Positions 50,942 to 63,800 of a DNA stretch of 64,000 bases are shown piece after piece. The DNA lies in contig JAITKM010000018.1 of assembly GCA_031278395.1 (NCBI GenBank), forward strand, positions 1-64,000, read 5' to 3'. The notes under the pieces were generated by a model. That model worked only from the letters and a program-made list of their open reading frames with translations. It made no database searches and had not been told where the DNA came from. The first letter of the stretch is position 1. Each line of letters starts with the position of its first letter. The DNA comes from Deltaproteobacteria bacterium (GTDB taxonomy: Bacteria > Bdellovibrionota_C > UBA2361 > SZUA-149 > JAITKM01). The translations under genes and the position numbers were made by a program.

Positions 50942-51296
50942 GGGGGTGTTCTGGTTTCGACGTGGATTATGAATCTTTATGTGGCGTGTCTCAGAGCCGT
51001 TGGCTGAGTTAACAAACGGCAAAAATGTAATCGCAAATACTGACGATTATGCAGAAATCGCTTTAGTAGCTTAATACTTTGGCGTCTTTTAGCTAGGTAG
51101 CTTGCGCTTGGTTAAAAGTTAATTTAGCAAACTAGGAAAATGTTGCTGCTTTGACGGCATAACTGAAAATTATTCAAAGCTAGTTATAAAGTTCCTGTCT
51201 GAGGGAGGCGTTATGATGAAATTCAAACTTAGGCTACACACGTAGAGGCATTTAGAAACAAATTCGCGGACGGGGGTTCAATTCCCCCCACCTCCA
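50942..51296 (+). ncRNA. ssrA: tmRNA (one-piece)
   Basis: 5' GGGGGTGTTCTGGTTTCGAC pairs with 3' GGGGGTTCAATTCCCCCCACCTCCA; tag ORF 51033-51074 reads ANTDDYAEIALVA*. Confidence 0.95.
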
Positions 51297-51425
51297 TTTT
51301 TGGTTTTTCCCTATACATATATTTATATCGTGAACTAACTATAGCGCACAGCTTCCTGCTAGCGCTTTTTACATTTAACTTTATTTAGCTTAAATAATTA
51401 AATCTCTACAGGAGTTTGGAAGTGG

Positions 51426-56459: not shown

Positions 56460-56759
56460 ATGATAATTGAGAAAACAGAAATTTTTGAGAAATGGTTAAA
56501 AAGGTTAAAAGATGAGCAGGCTAAAGGTTGTATTAATATTAAAATAAAAAGAATAGAAACAGAAAATTATTTCGGAGATTGTAGGTCAGTTGGTGATGGA
56601 ATTTTTGAGTTACGTATTTTTGTAGGTCCTGGATATAGAATATATTTTTACTACAAAGACGAAAGGGTTATAATGCTGCTTTGTGGTGGCAATAAAAAAA
56701 CTCAAAAAAGAGATATTAAAACGGCAAAACAAATATTAAAAGGAGAATATAAATTATGA
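56460..56759 (+). CDS. RelE/HigB-family toxin (addiction module killer protein)
   Basis: FEKWLKRLKDEQAKGCINIKIKRIE...GPGYRIYFYYKDERVIMLLCGGNKKTQKRDI. Confidence 0.85.
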   Translation: MIIEKTEIFEKWLKRLKDEQAKGCINIKIKRIETENYFGDCRSVGDGIFELRIFVGPGYRIYFYYKDERVIMLLCGGNKKTQKRDIKTAKQILKGEYKL

Positions 56760-57058
56760 AAAAACTAAAAACAACAAAATGGGATATATTAGATTATCTT
56801 GATAACGAAAAGGCAATTGCTGCTTATCTTTCTGCTGCAATTGCCGAAAATAATTTACCAACTTTTATTACCGCAATAGGTGATGTTGTTCGCGCACGTG
56901 GAGTAAACGACATGGCTAAAAAAATGAAAGTCGGCAGGGAAAGCCTTTATAAAAGCTTTTCTGGAAAAACCAAACCAAATTTTGAGACAGTCATAAAGGC
57001 ACTTGATATATTAGGGGTTAAAATCAATGTTCTTCCTAAAACAAAATCGTGTAGATAA
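56756..57058 (+). CDS. HigA-like antitoxin (addiction module antidote protein)
   Basis: IAAYLSAAIAENNLPTFITAIGDVVRARGVNDMAKKMKVGRESLYKSFSG; overlaps the toxin gene. Confidence 0.85.
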   Translation: MKKLKTTKWDILDYLDNEKAIAAYLSAAIAENNLPTFITAIGDVVRARGVNDMAKKMKVGRESLYKSFSGKTKPNFETVIKALDILGVKINVLPKTKSCR

Positions 57059-57060
57059 AA

Positions 57061-57834
57061 TTATGCGGCTAATAGTTCTTTAGATGCTTCTTTTTGAGAC
57101 CATAAAATAGTATTAATATCATATACTTTAAGGGCTTCAGTTGCTTCGTTTGATATATTTTTATCCTCGTCGTTAGCTATAACATAGGCTACTGACTTAT
57201 CCGTACGCATATCTTTAGTATCAAGCCAATCCATAATAAACATACTAGTTGAAGTTTTATTAGGATAATTAATAGCTCTTATTATTCTTTCTGGTGAGTT
57301 GGTTGATCTAGGAATTACGTAATCAAAACGCCTAGAGAATCCAGTTTTACCGGATAATAAAACATCAGGAGTATATCTTATATTAGAATTTTTTAGCCAA
57401 TTTCCAACATTTTCTAAAAATAAGTTTGTAGAATGCGGAGATGCAAGATAATACAAATCATTAATAGAAATAATAGCTTGTAGTAGGCAGTGTTTTTTAT
57501 AGGGAAAATCTTTGATTGTGGCAGCCGTAGTTAGTTCGTTGTTTTTACCTAATTTTATACCAAAACCATTTAAGACAATTTTTAAATAGTCTTTATTTTT
57601 TAAGGTTTCAAGGGATAGTCCAGACGATAATAAATCATTTATTGTTTCCCCGCCGTCATTAAGAATAAAATTTTCTTTTTCCTCGTTCTTAAAGTAGATT
57701 TGAATCGCATCGTTATGTCTGTCTAGATATGGGGTAGTTATTTCAGACCAGCCGTTTCCAACATCCTCAAAGGTTGTTTGGTCTCTTAACCAAATATAAT
57801 AGTTATCAATCATTTTTTGTAATTCTATTTTCAT
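57061..57834 (-). CDS. DUF1828-like protein
   Basis: N-terminal WSEITTPYLDRHNDAIQIYF...FILNDGGETINDL. Confidence 0.6.
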   Translation of the reverse strand: MKIELQKMIDNYYIWLRDQTTFEDVGNGWSEITTPYLDRHNDAIQIYFKNEEKENFILNDGGETINDLLSSGLSLETLKNKDYLKIVLNGFGIKLGKNNELTTAATIKDFPYKKHCLLQAIISINDLYYLASPHSTNLFLENVGNWLKNSNIRYTPDVLLSGKTGFSRRFDYVIPRSTNSPERIIRAINYPNKTSTSMFIMDWLDTKDMRTDKSVAYVIANDEDKNISNEATEALKVYDINTILWSQKEASKELLAA

Positions 57835-58294: not shown

Positions 58295-58870
58295 CTAAAA
58301 ATAATTAACAAATGACCCAATAACACGCCCTAATATTTTTACATCTTTAATTTTCATTTCTGTTTTTATCGTATATTTTTCATTATCGCATTTTATCAGT
58401 GCTTTTTCAGCGATTAAATCAACTTCCACACGCCGAAAACCGTAGTTATCACCTATTGTAGGAATTACGTAGATTCCAGATTTATCAATTTTATTAATAC
58501 CAAAATCCACGAGCACAGAATCATCCGGCTTAAATGTTGGATACATTTCGTCGCCTGTTAGTTTAACCCATTTTGGGATTATTGCGTTGGGAGCTATATT
58601 AATATTAGTAATAATTTTTTCTTCAGAATCTAAAAGTTCCCCAGCGGGAATCTGAAGAGCATTTGCTAATTTAATTACATGTTCATGCTTTGGGTATTTA
58701 ACATGCCCAGTCATTATTTTTCTTAATATCTCGTAAGATACACCAGATTTTTGTGCAAGATCTGCCAGAAGGTCAAATCCTCTCTTTTTCATGTATAGTT
58801 TTAAATTTTTAATTAGTGCTTCTGTTTCTGTTGGTACAGTTTCTTTTTTTAATATTTTTTCCCGTTTCAT
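58295..58870 (-). CDS. CI/LexA-like phage repressor with degenerate S24 domain
   Basis: HTH LADLAQKSGVSYEILRKIMTGHVKYP; VKLTGDEMYPTFKPDDSVLVDFG. Confidence 0.8.
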   Translation of the reverse strand: MKREKILKKETVPTETEALIKNLKLYMKKRGFDLLADLAQKSGVSYEILRKIMTGHVKYPKHEHVIKLANALQIPAGELLDSEEKIITNINIAPNAIIPKWVKLTGDEMYPTFKPDDSVLVDFGINKIDKSGIYVIPTIGDNYGFRRVEVDLIAEKALIKCDNEKYTIKTEMKIKDVKILGRVIGSFVNYF

Positions 58871-58896
58871 AGCCTTCCCGAAGATTTTTCTGATTA

Positions 58897-58910
58897 AATA
58901 TACGTATATT
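58897..58910. promoter_or_regulatory. 14-bp perfect palindrome AATATACGTATATT, operator candidate
   Basis: Direct reading, between the divergent repressor and helicase genes. Confidence 0.4.
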
Positions 58911-58997
58911 AACTATCTTTGTAAATAATATCGCCTCTTTTTTAGGATAATTTAAAATTTTTTGTTCACTTTTATAAACAAAAGGGAATAATTATAC

Positions 58998-59024
58998 TTG
59001 ACTGTTACAAAATAGAACTATAAG
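58998..59024 (+). promoter_or_regulatory. Putative early rightward promoter TTGACT-15 nt-TATAAG
   Basis: Direct reading; predicted start falls at the base of the structured RNA. Confidence 0.5.
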
Positions 59025-59032
59025 GGAATATT

Positions 59033-59099
59033 AATCACGGCGGCTCAATGGTAGCTCCTTTGAGTGCAAGATTTTCCCGATCTTTGTCCGTGATTTTTT
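59033..59099 (+). ncRNA. Three-way-junction RNA with terminal U-run (sRNA or attenuator candidate)
   Basis: AATCACGG/CCGTGATT outer stem; inner CTCAA/TTGAG and AAGAT/ATCTT hairpins; ends TTTTTT. Confidence 0.5.
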
Positions 59100-59123
59100 A
59101 AGGGATAAAATCGAGGGAATGGA

Positions 59124-60560
59124 ATGCAACTTAGAGATTATCAAATAAAAGCAATCGACGACATCAAGCAAGCATTCGCTTCAGGGTTTAGGGCACCGTT
59201 ATTTCAGATGATGTGCGGTGGAGGTAAGACGGCAATTCTCTCTCATATCACAAAGGGTGCAGCGCAAAAACAAAATCACGTATGTATCGTTGTTCATCGG
59301 CAAGAACTAGTAACACAAACATCAGTAGCTCTCGCGCGTACAGGCGTGTGGCATAACATTTGTGCAACTAATAACGTTGTACAGTCTGCTATCAAATCTC
59401 AAATAAAATCTACTGGTAGGTCTTATTATCAGTATGAATCATTTGTAACAGTAGCGTCTATTCAGACGTTAATTCGTCGTATGCACGAATATCCAAGTTT
59501 TAATTTTCTACTACTAGATGAGGCAGCGCATGCCTGCGCTGCAACGTGGACTAAACTAATCTCATATTATCCAAAAGCTAAAATTCTAGGTGTTACTGCA
59601 ACTCCACAGCGCCTTGATGGCAGAGGTTTAGGTGTCGAATCTGGAGGTGTGTTTGACACGCTTATAAATGGACCAAGTGTCAAACACCTTATTGAACAAG
59701 GCTGGTTGTCAGACTATAAAGTTTACGCTCCGCCAAACGATTTAAATTTAGATGGAATAAAAAAAATCGCCGGCGACTACGCTAAAAACGAACTTGTAAA
59801 ACTTGTCGATAAAAATAAAATTACAGGCGATGTAATCGAGCATTATAAAAAAATATGTAACGGTGTCCCATCCATTGCGTTCTGTGTATCGATAGAACAT
59901 GCAAAACATGTAGCGGAGCAATTTAAAGCCGCAGGTTATCGTGCGGCTTGCATTGACGGCAAGTTAGACGATTATACGCGTCGTTCTTACATTGATGCGC
60001 TTGGTTGTGGTGGTTTAAATGTTTTAACCTCCTGTGAGATTATTTCAGAAGGCACAGATATACCTATCGTGGGTGCAGTGATTCTTTTACGCCCGACGCA
60101 CTCTTTATCATTGCATTTGCAACAAATCGGCAGAGGGTTACGTCTATACCAAGATAAAGAATATGTAATAATTTTAGACCACGTAGGAAATATAGCTCGA
60201 CATGGATTTCCAGATGACGCCCGTGAGTGGACATTAGAGGGAAGGTCTTTTAAAAATAAAAAAATATCAGATAAAATTCTATCAATTCGTCAGTGCCTAA
60301 ACTGTTACGCAATATATCCAGCAAATTTAAACATCTGTCCGCAGTGTAAAACACCGCTACAAAAATCAACACGAGAGATTCAGCAAGAAGAAGGACAATT
60401 AATAGAAATTCAGCGCCTACAGGAACGTAGGCAAGCACGAATCGAACAAGGTAGAGCGCAGGCATTAAAAGACTTAATAGAACTAGGAAAGCGCAAGGGA
60501 TACAAAAATCCTTACGCGTGGGCAAAGTATGTTTTTAACGCAAGGATAAAAACGGCATGA
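59124..60560 (+). CDS. Phage superfamily 2 DEAD/DEAH-type helicase
   Basis: QMMCGGGKTAI, LLLDEAAHA, GVTATPQRLDGRGL, QIGRGLR. Confidence 0.9.
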   Translation: MQLRDYQIKAIDDIKQAFASGFRAPLFQMMCGGGKTAILSHITKGAAQKQNHVCIVVHRQELVTQTSVALARTGVWHNICATNNVVQSAIKSQIKSTGRSYYQYESFVTVASIQTLIRRMHEYPSFNFLLLDEAAHACAATWTKLISYYPKAKILGVTATPQRLDGRGLGVESGGVFDTLINGPSVKHLIEQGWLSDYKVYAPPNDLNLDGIKKIAGDYAKNELVKLVDKNKITGDVIEHYKKICNGVPSIAFCVSIEHAKHVAEQFKAAGYRAACIDGKLDDYTRRSYIDALGCGGLNVLTSCEIISEGTDIPIVGAVILLRPTHSLSLHLQQIGRGLRLYQDKEYVIILDHVGNIARHGFPDDAREWTLEGRSFKNKKISDKILSIRQCLNCYAIYPANLNICPQCKTPLQKSTREIQQEEGQLIEIQRLQERRQARIEQGRAQALKDLIELGKRKGYKNPYAWAKYVFNARIKTA

Positions 60561-60967
60561 GATATAGACATAAAAAACGGGCTCAAAACAACTTAGCCAT
60601 AAAATTCTCCGATACACCAGAGGTTAATCTCTTAATAGCGATTATAAAACAAAGTTGGGTTGATGAACTACTACCGACTTACGGCATTTCCCGAAAAAGC
60701 TCAGGTATTAGAAGTAGAAATGATAAAATATCGGCGCATGATTTTTTTTATCACGGCGATTATTTCGGTGAAATCTGTAATGTAATTAATCTCAATCAAG
60801 AGCAATTTATATATTATTTAGAAAAGGTAAAAATAATTTTAAATAACAATAAAAAACTAAGACAGCCGCAAAAAGTTTTAGAAATTTTTAGATTAGTTAT
60901 AAAAAAAATGATTCGTACCCAAAACGATGAAGATAATTATAATTTCCATTTATGCAAGAATCATTAA
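60557..60967 (+). CDS. Hypothetical protein of the replication operon
   Basis: ATGA-coupled ORF. Confidence 0.55.
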   Translation: MRYRHKKRAQNNLAIKFSDTPEVNLLIAIIKQSWVDELLPTYGISRKSSGIRSRNDKISAHDFFYHGDYFGEICNVINLNQEQFIYYLEKVKIILNNNKKLRQPQKVLEIFRLVIKKMIRTQNDEDNYNFHLCKNH

Positions 60968-61332
60968 TTTTAAAAAAAATAATGTTAGCATTAGGGCAGC
61001 TTAAAACTCTCCGTATTTGGCGTAATAATACAGGCGTTTTATGGAGCGGAACAGATATTAAAAAACTAGGTAAGGATATTTATATTAAAAACGCTTATCC
61101 TGTCAGGTTCGGATTAGAAGGCTCGGCGGACATTTTAGGAATTATTGCGCCGGATGGAAAATTTTTAGCAATAGAAGTTAAACAACAAAGAGGTAGGCAG
61201 TCAGAGAAGCAAAAGAATTTTGAGAATATGATTAAATCCTTGGGGGGAGTTTATATTTTAGCACACTCTCCTGAGGAAGCTTTAGAAAAATTAAAAGTTG
61301 TTATTAACGTTAATAAAACAGAAATAATATGA
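60952..61332 (+). CDS. VRR-NUC-domain nuclease
   Basis: RIWRNNTGVLWSG...PVRFGLEGSADILGIIAPDGKFLAIEVKQQRGRQSEKQKNFENMIKSLGGVYILA. Confidence 0.88.
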   Translation: MQESLILKKIMLALGQLKTLRIWRNNTGVLWSGTDIKKLGKDIYIKNAYPVRFGLEGSADILGIIAPDGKFLAIEVKQQRGRQSEKQKNFENMIKSLGGVYILAHSPEEALEKLKVVINVNKTEII

Positions 61333-63800
61333 GCAAAAAACTAGATTTCGATAATATAAATATTAACGCTTTAAATCGTTTACCAACGCTACTTAGGGAA
61401 TGGTTACCTGAAGGAGTACAACAAGGAAACGAATATGTATGTGGCTCATGGAACGGAGAGAAAGGGACATCGTTATCTATTAATATTAACACTGGTAAAG
61501 GTGGAGATTTTGCCTCTAACGATTTAGTTGGTGATCCTATAGGAATTTATGCAAAACGGTTTAATATAGATAGGGTTCAAGCAGCTAGAGAATTAGATAA
61601 AATAGTTAACAATACACCTGAGGTTATATCCAAGCCTAAAAAAGTAGATTCCGAAGTAGAAAAGATAAAAAAATTAAATAAAATTCTTTCAGAGTCTGTT
61701 TCGTTGCTTAAAACACCTGCTCAAAAATATCTCCAAAATAGAGGATTAACTTCTTGTAATACTAATATTTTTAAATATCGTCCTCATAAATCCGGCGGTG
61801 GTTCTCTAGTCTGTATAGCGTTTAATGAAAATAATGAGGTTAAGGCTGTTCAACAAGTTTTTATAACTGCTGAAGGTAAAAAGAATACAATTGTAAAGAA
61901 TATAAAAATAACAAACGGGTTTCCGTCTGGTAATCCAATAAGAATACCAAGGCGTCCAAGTGTTTCAGAAAATACACCTATAATTGTCTGCGAAGGACCA
62001 GAAGATGCGATAACCTTATCTAATGCTACAGGGTTTGAAGTCTGGGGAACATGTGGACTTAGTTTTATGGATAAGATTCCTTTTATTCCTGAACGCCAGT
62101 ATTTAATTGTTCGAGACAATGACCCTATAGGCTCTGAAGCAGATGTAAAAATTAACAAAATTATCTCAACGTTAATAGACCGAGGTTTAAACAATCTGTT
62201 ATGCACACGTCCGCCGGATGGAGTTAAGGATTCAAATGAATTATTGAAGACTACTGGAATTAAAGCTGTTGAAGAAATGATTAATAACGCCCAGCCGGTG
62301 CATGATTTTAGGAATTTAACCGAGGAAGACACCCAAAAATCTCAAGCCTTAGAAAATGAAGTATGCGAAAATAATGAAGTAAATAAATTTTTAACTAAAG
62401 AAGGGTTAAAAATAAAAAACTGTTCGAAATATGAATATAACGACACTGGAAATTCTGAACGCATTGTTGAGCATTGGGGGGATAAAGTTAAATATATAGA
62501 CGAATTAAGTTGGGCTATATATAAAAAAGGAAGATGGGAGCTGGCATCTGATAAAAGAGCGCTTAATATGGTTATGGATGTTATTAAAAAAATAAAAAAA
62601 GAAAGAAATTACATCACAGAGATTAGAAAAGAGGCTTTAGAAAAGTGGTATTGGAAATCAAGAAGCGAACATTGTACTAGGGCATCTCTTAATCTAGCAA
62701 AAGCAAAACTTCTTATTGAAGCAGAAAAATTTAATCAGTATCCATATTATTTAAATTGCAATAACGGTGTTTTGGATCTTAAAACTGGGAAGCTTTTACC
62801 ACATAACCCGGAATATTACTTAACTAAAAAGATAGATACTAATTATGACCCATCGGCAAAGTGCCCCCAATGGGATAAGTTTCTAAATGAAATTTTCTCT
62901 GGCAATATAGATTTAATTAATTATATTCAAAGATGTGTTGGATATAGTTTAACAGGCGATACATGTGAACAGTGTATGTTTATTTTTTTAGGGCATGGTT
63001 CTGATGGGAAGTCTCTATTTTTTGATGTATTAAAGAATTTACTACGGGATTATCATTGCAATATTCCTGTTTCTACTTTTGAGCTAAAAAAACAGGAGAA
63101 TGAAGCACAACCGTTTATAGCTCAATTACAAAATATTCGTTTCGTTGTGTCAGCAGAAAGTAATACAGATGTTTATTTTAATGAAGCATTAATAAAATCA
63201 CTAACAGGAGAAAGAGAGATTGTGACTAGGGGACTATATTCTGCCCCAATAAATATGAAAATAGAGTTTAAAATTTGGTTATCTACTAATTATAAGTTAA
63301 AACTTAAAAATACTGAAAGAGGAATAAAAAGGCGTTTAAAATTAATTCCTTTAAACGAATATTTTTATGAAGATGGCGATAATTCAGAAGAGGCGAAAAA
63401 AGGAAGATTAAAGGATAAAAAATTATATGAAAAACTTTCAACGGAAAAAGAAGGTATTCTTGCTTGGGCAATTAGGGGATGTTTAGAGTGGCAAAAACTA
63501 GGTGGATTACATGAGGTAGACATAGTTAAGGATACAACAGAAAACTATTTTAAAGAAATGGATACTATTGGAAATTTTTTAGAAGAGTGTTGCGAAAAAA
63601 ATCCTTGCTATTCTATAGAGGCAAGAGATTTGTATCAATCTTATAGAAAATGGTGTGAAAAAACGGGACATATAGCATTTGCAGACAATGGTTTTTATAG
63701 AAAATTATCGGAAAAAAATATCGAAAGAAGACACACACGATGTGGAAATAGATATTTTGGAATAGTATTAAAAAATTGGAATAATAATTTTGTTAATTAG
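61329..63800 (+). CDS. D5/P4-type primase-helicase with TOPRIM-like domain
   Basis: VCEGPEDAITLSNATG, YLIVRDND; SF3 Walker A GHGSDGKSLFFDVL. Confidence 0.88.
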   Translation: MSKKLDFDNININALNRLPTLLREWLPEGVQQGNEYVCGSWNGEKGTSLSININTGKGGDFASNDLVGDPIGIYAKRFNIDRVQAARELDKIVNNTPEVISKPKKVDSEVEKIKKLNKILSESVSLLKTPAQKYLQNRGLTSCNTNIFKYRPHKSGGGSLVCIAFNENNEVKAVQQVFITAEGKKNTIVKNIKITNGFPSGNPIRIPRRPSVSENTPIIVCEGPEDAITLSNATGFEVWGTCGLSFMDKIPFIPERQYLIVRDNDPIGSEADVKINKIISTLIDRGLNNLLCTRPPDGVKDSNELLKTTGIKAVEEMINNAQPVHDFRNLTEEDTQKSQALENEVCENNEVNKFLTKEGLKIKNCSKYEYNDTGNSERIVEHWGDKVKYIDELSWAIYKKGRWELASDKRALNMVMDVIKKIKKERNYITEIRKEALEKWYWKSRSEHCTRASLNLAKAKLLIEAEKFNQYPYYLNCNNGVLDLKTGKLLPHNPEYYLTKKIDTNYDPSAKCPQWDKFLNEIFSGNIDLINYIQRCVGYSLTGDTCEQCMFIFLGHGSDGKSLFFDVLKNLLRDYHCNIPVSTFELKKQENEAQPFIAQLQNIRFVVSAESNTDVYFNEALIKSLTGEREIVTRGLYSAPINMKIEFKIWLSTNYKLKLKNTERGIKRRLKLIPLNEYFYEDGDNSEEAKKGRLKDKKLYEKLSTEKEGILAWAIRGCLEWQKLGGLHEVDIVKDTTENYFKEMDTIGNFLEECCEKNPCYSIEARDLYQSYRKWCEKTGHIAFADNGFYRKLSEKNIERRHTRCGNRYFGIVLKNWNNNFVN

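Follow-up and report, generated by a model that had tools for sequence, protein, structure and literature searches.

A candidate two-state leader RNA between a divergent repressor gene and the replication operon of a phage early region in Bdellovibrionota_C

Gene content of the phage early region

The window analyzed here is a 64,000-nt stretch (positions 1 to 64,000 of the forward strand of contig JAITKM010000018.1, assembly GCA_031278395.1) from a deltaproteobacterium that GTDB places in Bdellovibrionota_C. Toward its right end, a 253-bp gap separates a repressor gene on the minus strand from a replication operon on the plus strand, and the stretch under study lies within this gap. The repressor (58295 to 58870) is CI-like (PHROG_4, 1.5e-18; Pfam Peptidase_S24, HTH_26, and HTH_3), its profile matches giving a Cro/CI-type helix-turn-helix and an S24 peptidase-like domain, and it is transcribed away from the helicase. 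The operon opens with a phage superfamily II (DEAD/ResIII) helicase (59124 to 60560; PHROG_16, 9.8e-94; Pfam ResIII and Helicase_C). Its ATG at 59124, 25 nt past the fold and U-run described below, is where the initial annotation had set the start of a helicase operon, and the profile matches bear out the gene's identity. The remainder of the operon (60557 to 63800, plus strand) encodes an unknown 136-amino-acid protein, a VRR-NUC-like nuclease, and a P4-family primase-helicase, while the other flank of the repressor carries a PD-(D/E)XK exonuclease, RecT, and an AAA-like protein. Judged by this gene content, the region is a phage early region. Neither the open reading frames (ORFs) of the gap nor a profile search revealed a Cro-like gene between the early promoter and the helicase.

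A tmRNA gene (50942 to 51299, plus strand; its end is at 51296 according to ARAGORN) precedes the phage genes, which start shortly after it, and tmRNA genes are a frequent integration site. No second copy of the tmRNA 3′ end was found elsewhere in the assembly, and no integrase was found on the contig studied; tyrosine integrases are encoded on contigs C35 and C44 of the assembly. The contig stops at 65,221, so that the remainder of the phage is out of view. Within the early region, a RelE/ParE-type toxin and its antidote (TIGR02683/TIGR02684) are encoded at 56460 to 57058 on the plus strand, and between this pair and the repressor lies a gene for a DUF1828/DUF1829 protein (PHROG_5059; 57061 to 57834, minus strand). 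Past the window, contig positions 63700 to 65221 hold a small AT-rich ORF, a gap, and then a protein beginning MGNVFNIAKKLCEANGWGASNLKLQKTLYLSQL, which by eye has a SocA/GepA-type (Panacea-like) appearance.

Promoters and putative operators in the divergent gap

An early promoter had been proposed from the letters TTGACT-N15-TATAAG, and these are indeed present on the plus strand at 58998 to 59024, with TTGACT at 58998 to 59003, a 15-nt spacer, and TATAAG at 59019 to 59024. In a consensus scan, this promoter-like site was the sole plus-strand match of at least 10/12 with a spacer of 15 to 19 nt in the 253-bp gap, a result to be read beside the 16% of shuffled gaps that contain a match too; furthermore, a spacer of 15 nt is short and poor. 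Another promoter-like site, TTTATA-N16-TATACT (58971 to 58998), would start transcription about 25 nt earlier, and the RNA folds in the same way from that start. On the minus strand, the consensus scan predicts a promoter for the repressor, TTTACA-N17-TATATT (58897 to 58925; 10/12). A perfect palindrome, AATATACGTATATT (58896 to 58911), overlaps the predicted −10 region of this repressor promoter.

Two 14-bp sites, 41 bp apart and inverted with respect to each other, flank or overlap the early promoter. Putative operator copy 1, GTTCACTTTTATAA, lies on the plus strand at 58964 to 58977; it is identical at 11 of 14 positions to the inverted copy 2, GTTCTATTTTGTAA, which lies on the minus strand at 59005 to 59018 and occupies the spacer of the early promoter. 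The pattern GTTCNNTTTTNTAA, derived from these two sites, has exactly two matches in 64 kb, which are the sites themselves. A repeat search also returned imperfect 23-nt direct repeats on the plus strand (58973 to 58995 and 59013 to 59035, 40 bp apart, 74% identity), which have AAGGGAATA in common and overlap both putative operators. A perfect dyad was likewise considered as the operator and rejected, the best dyads being no better than those of shuffled sequence; what emerged in its place was the 14-bp inverted pair. Placed as an operator would be, the two inverted sites are likely repressor sites. The early promoter in turn gains support because both sites adjoin it, the second within its spacer.

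Predicted folds of the leader

The start predicted near 59031 stands, although it lies two bases ahead of the base of the stem (59033) and not exactly at it, where it had been put. The predicted short transcript comprises 69 nt (59031 to 59099, plus strand; both ends predicted), and its RNAfold optimum, at −20.3 kcal/mol, is exactly the three-way junction that had been described from the letters, followed by a U-run. The closing stem is a perfect 8-bp pairing of AATCACGG (59033 to 59040) with CCGTGATT (59088 to 59095), as claimed. It encloses hairpin 1 (GCTCAA..TTGAGT, 59043 to 59065) and hairpin 2 (AAGAT-TTTCCCG-ATCTT, 59068 to 59084), which include the CTCAA..TTGAG and AAGAT..ATCTT pairings recognized initially. 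The T6 run occupies 59094 to 59099, its first two T residues belonging to the stem. A suggested likeness to a tRNA D-arm did not hold up, since ARAGORN found only the tmRNA and Rfam gave no match.

Compared with dinucleotide shuffles, the junction (59031 to 59099) folds modestly better than chance (z = −2.7, P = 0.013), with a significance that varies with the ends chosen; with 6 nt added on each side (59025 to 59105), z is −1.05 and 32 of 200 shuffles are equally good. About 1.2 to 1.5% of 69-nt segments, taken from the whole window or from its phage part, fold at least equally well, the full range for phage segments being 1.2 to 1.9%. We also searched both strands for perfect 8-bp stems with at least four G-C pairs, arms 20 to 60 nt apart, and a T-rich tail. 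There is one distinct case in 64 kb, while shuffled sequence gave a mean of 0.2 under a count that scored the studied site three times. The stem is unusual, yet it was chosen among the best things in 64 kb.

With 8 bp, four of them G-C pairs, and an adjoining U-run, the closing stem has the G+C-rich stem and U-run of an intrinsic terminator around a branched interior, and a simple terminator scanner (loops of 3 to 8 nt) does not list it. Among 205 host genes, a hairpin with a U-run at −8 kcal/mol occurs behind 5.4% of genes versus inside 2.0%, and at −10 kcal/mol behind 3.4% versus inside none. Because such signals are barely enriched behind genes, it is uncertain that a hairpin and U-run stop the host polymerase well, and intrinsic termination in this host is possible, if not evidently a main mode.

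Lengthening the RNA base by base revealed a second structure. The junction is optimal until about 59110, an alternative fold wins from 59113, as the helicase Shine-Dalgarno sequence emerges, and this fold is ahead by a predicted 7 to 8 kcal/mol at 59119 to 59140. In the alternative fold, UUCCCGAUCUUUGUCC (59074 to 59089) pairs with GGGAUAAAAUCGAGGGAA (59102 to 59119), and a lower stem extends the structure to a long hairpin of the read-through RNA (59058 to 59138, plus strand). The long hairpin undoes hairpin 2 and takes the closing stem's 3′ arm away from the junction, so that the two folds are mutually exclusive, and it buries the helicase Shine-Dalgarno sequence, GAGGGA (59113 to 59118). 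The GGGA core has a predicted unpaired probability of about 0.003 to 0.03 in read-through RNA and is predicted to be partly free when the junction is enforced. For 59056 to 59140, a segment picked after the fold was seen, the minimum free energy is −28.0 (z = −3.6, P = 0.002). The leader has a complement in the segment downstream (duplex −32.1, P = 0.0015 to 0.0075), and when only 59031 to 59093 was shuffled, with the U-run and downstream sequence kept, both fold energies were reached together in 0.27% of cases. Burial as such is common, with 53% of shuffled leaders likewise hiding the helicase Shine-Dalgarno sequence in their optimum fold; in a ranking of hidden ribosome sites the helicase comes third among 43 genes, and two of the window's ordinary genes are hidden at least as much. 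A conditional leader becomes more plausible because the competing fold hides the helicase ribosome-binding site. This competing fold and the paired 14-bp inverted sites are new observations of this analysis.

We asked whether the element has relatives that could add covariation support and found none in any collection searched. An Rfam scan of 58950 to 59150, at gathering and at relaxed thresholds up to an E value of 10, gave only noise, including no match to the isrK RNA or C4 antisense RNA families. A single-sequence covariance model found no relative in the 47 genomes available for the class, and a search of the phylum covered the same 47. Its one strong-looking match, at 34.8 bits, lies inside the coding sequence of truA and was taken as a false positive, showing that the E values of the single-sequence model are too optimistic. 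Exact and gapped patterns gave 6, 4, and 7 matches in IMG/VR and GTDB contigs, about as many as expected by chance and none with the structure or context, and searching phages and plasmids with the DNA sequence of the switch returned nothing meaningful. The repressor had no match in phage records or in 96 other genomes at an E value of 1e-6. Searches with the helicase, primase, RecT, repressor, and AAA-like protein yielded distant relatives only, at no more than 48% local identity and without the leader, the helicases being up to 45% identical to those in Bordetella, Pseudomonas, and Acinetobacter phages. The leader is absent from three inspected phages and from an IMG/VR contig in which helicase and RecT genes diverge in the same way; in the distant phages inspected, the helicase is preceded by a small helix-turn-helix gene or other genes or directly adjoins an exonuclease gene.

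Interpretation and comparison with known phage RNAs

The initial annotation had offered two options, a phage small RNA or a conditional terminator controlling the helicase operon. The conditional terminator is the better one, favored by a promoter-like site beside likely operators, a terminator-like fold with a U-run, the operon start, and the divergent repressor, while a free-standing small RNA is not directly supported. What is real at this locus is a well-placed, moderately unusual structured leader, and its regulation is plausible and of a familiar phage kind. Our preferred explanation, to which we give somewhat less than even confidence, is that the stretch combines a repressor-controlled early promoter with a two-state leader of the replication operon, in which a terminator-like fold competes with one that hides the ribosome site. 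In such a scheme, the repressor would shut the early promoter through the two putative operators, and upon its release RNA polymerase would start near 59031. The first 65 nt would fold into the three-way junction, whose base runs into the U-run, and some transcripts would end at about 59099. Transcripts that read through could refold, the helicase ribosome-site sequence pairing back onto the junction's 3′ arm and hairpin 2, which would remove the junction and hide the helicase Shine-Dalgarno sequence. Efficient helicase synthesis would then occur only if transcription continues and the junction is kept; alternatively, a ribosome, a protein, or another RNA may hold the long hairpin open while transcription continues, and the helicase would be made. 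If real, this leader would place an RNA-based checkpoint at the exact step by which a temperate phage becomes committed to replication.

The main and serious rival, which we regard as quite possible though doubtful, is an ordinary early promoter with an untranslated leader, in which the folds arise by chance in AT-rich sequence and the U-run has no function. Such chance folding would account for the modest and window-dependent significance of the junction, for the share of segments that fold equally well, for the many shuffles that hide the ribosome site too, and for the lack of relatives in the searches. It accounts less well for the coincidence of a promoter, a branched stem, a U-run, and an operon start in one 125-bp stretch, for the single stem with a T-rich tail in 64 kb, and for a joint energy P value of about 0.003.

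We consider it unlikely that the terminated 69-nt RNA is a trans regulator of the lytic state, lowering the repressor or acting in an IsrK-like manner on its own read-through mRNA. The hairpin 2 loop and its closing pair, UUUUCCCGA, are complementary to the Shine-Dalgarno region of the repressor (UCGGGAAGG). Of 43 start regions scored for pairing with the exposed loop, that of the repressor came out best (−11.4 kcal/mol over 9 contiguous pairs), a score matched by 0.2% of 9-mers from the phage and by 1.8% of loops after shuffling. In net co-folding energy, which includes the cost of opening the RNA, the repressor is again first when the U-tail is included (−9.8), and the missing Cro-like gene is in keeping with this reading. 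However, this target was selected after the fact, many ribosome sites pair with C-rich loops, and the repressor drops to fourth place when the U-tail is left out. Shuffled RNAs bind the repressor equally well or better (P = 0.875), mostly because they are less folded, and for the short RNA on the helicase read-through mRNA the net co-folding energy of −9.1 has a P value of 0.22 against shuffles. With support this weak and mixed, trans pairing to the repressor is a lead and not a finding. More improbable still is a scheme in which RNA takes the place of Cro, an attenuated two-state leader metering the replication operon while the terminated 69-nt RNA blocks the repressor ribosome site through its C-rich loop.

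We give similarly little credence to a site that acts as DNA (an operator or replication element) or as an antitermination signal like the put site of HK022 in place of a terminator. The position directly behind the early promoter and the operator-like repeats nearby would suit either role, but with 47 nt between its arms the stem does not resemble a protein-bound dyad, the repeat search found no iteron-like repeats in the stem, and a U-run directly at the stem favors termination. Least probable of all is attenuation by a leader peptide, with ribosomes on a possible 17-codon ORF, MVAPLSARFSRSLSVIF (59048 to 59101, plus strand), melting the junction and opening the helicase site by coupling; this ORF crosses the junction and ends 12 nt short of the helicase Shine-Dalgarno sequence, but it has no good ribosome-binding site and no regulatory codon run, and since chance ORFs of such length are common it is probably one of them.

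Returning to the two-state leader, several phage RNAs offer partial parallels. The put sites of HK022, which lie directly behind a phage promoter, consist of two separate hairpins and prevent termination, and lambda 6S is a short promoter-terminator transcript whose ordinary terminator is under Q control, with read-through expressing an operon. Here, too, a structured RNA would lie directly behind a phage promoter, but no antiterminator gene was identified among the genes in view. The C4 antisense RNA of P1 and P7, a short structured RNA with hairpins that acts on ant translation, resembles the leader as a short hairpin-bearing RNA in a phage immunity region. The CI RNA of P4 is about 69 nt long, and as here it lies in the leader of an operon for replication that includes a P4-family primase, with a complement just downstream. 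P4 CI RNA, however, is released by processing of a longer leader and is flanked by a complement on either side (seqA upstream and seqC downstream; PMC4825925 and references therein), whereas here the only complement is downstream, because the RNA begins at the predicted transcript start and has no leader upstream of it, and a protein repressor would provide immunity.

The nearest published logic appears to be that of IsrK in the isrK-orf45-anrP region of Salmonella prophage Gifsy-1, where one promoter yields both a short RNA that ends at a terminator and a longer mRNA that reads through it (PMC4825925). The Gifsy-1 read-through mRNA is predicted to be translationally silent, since its leader pairs downstream and hides the next ribosome site, giving two competing folds; IsrK controls the anti-repressor and AntQ, and its action in trans has been shown (PMC4825925). 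IsrK has itself been compared with P4, whose CI RNA controls replication genes by pairing with flanking sequences (PMC4825925). The locus described here is compatible in sequence with the same arrangement of one promoter, a short terminated RNA, a read-through mRNA, and predicted competing folds. It differs in having no sequence or Rfam match to IsrK, in placing a helicase-primase operon as the target, in a pairing partner that is the ribosome site itself, and in a trans action that the energy tests leave unsupported. On paper, the leader is thus like IsrK or P4 CI, and by the tests made it belongs to neither family. In a host phylum represented here by 47 genomes, and with no close relative in the collections searched, this switch would, if real, add an IsrK- or P4-CI-like layer on top of a protein repressor.
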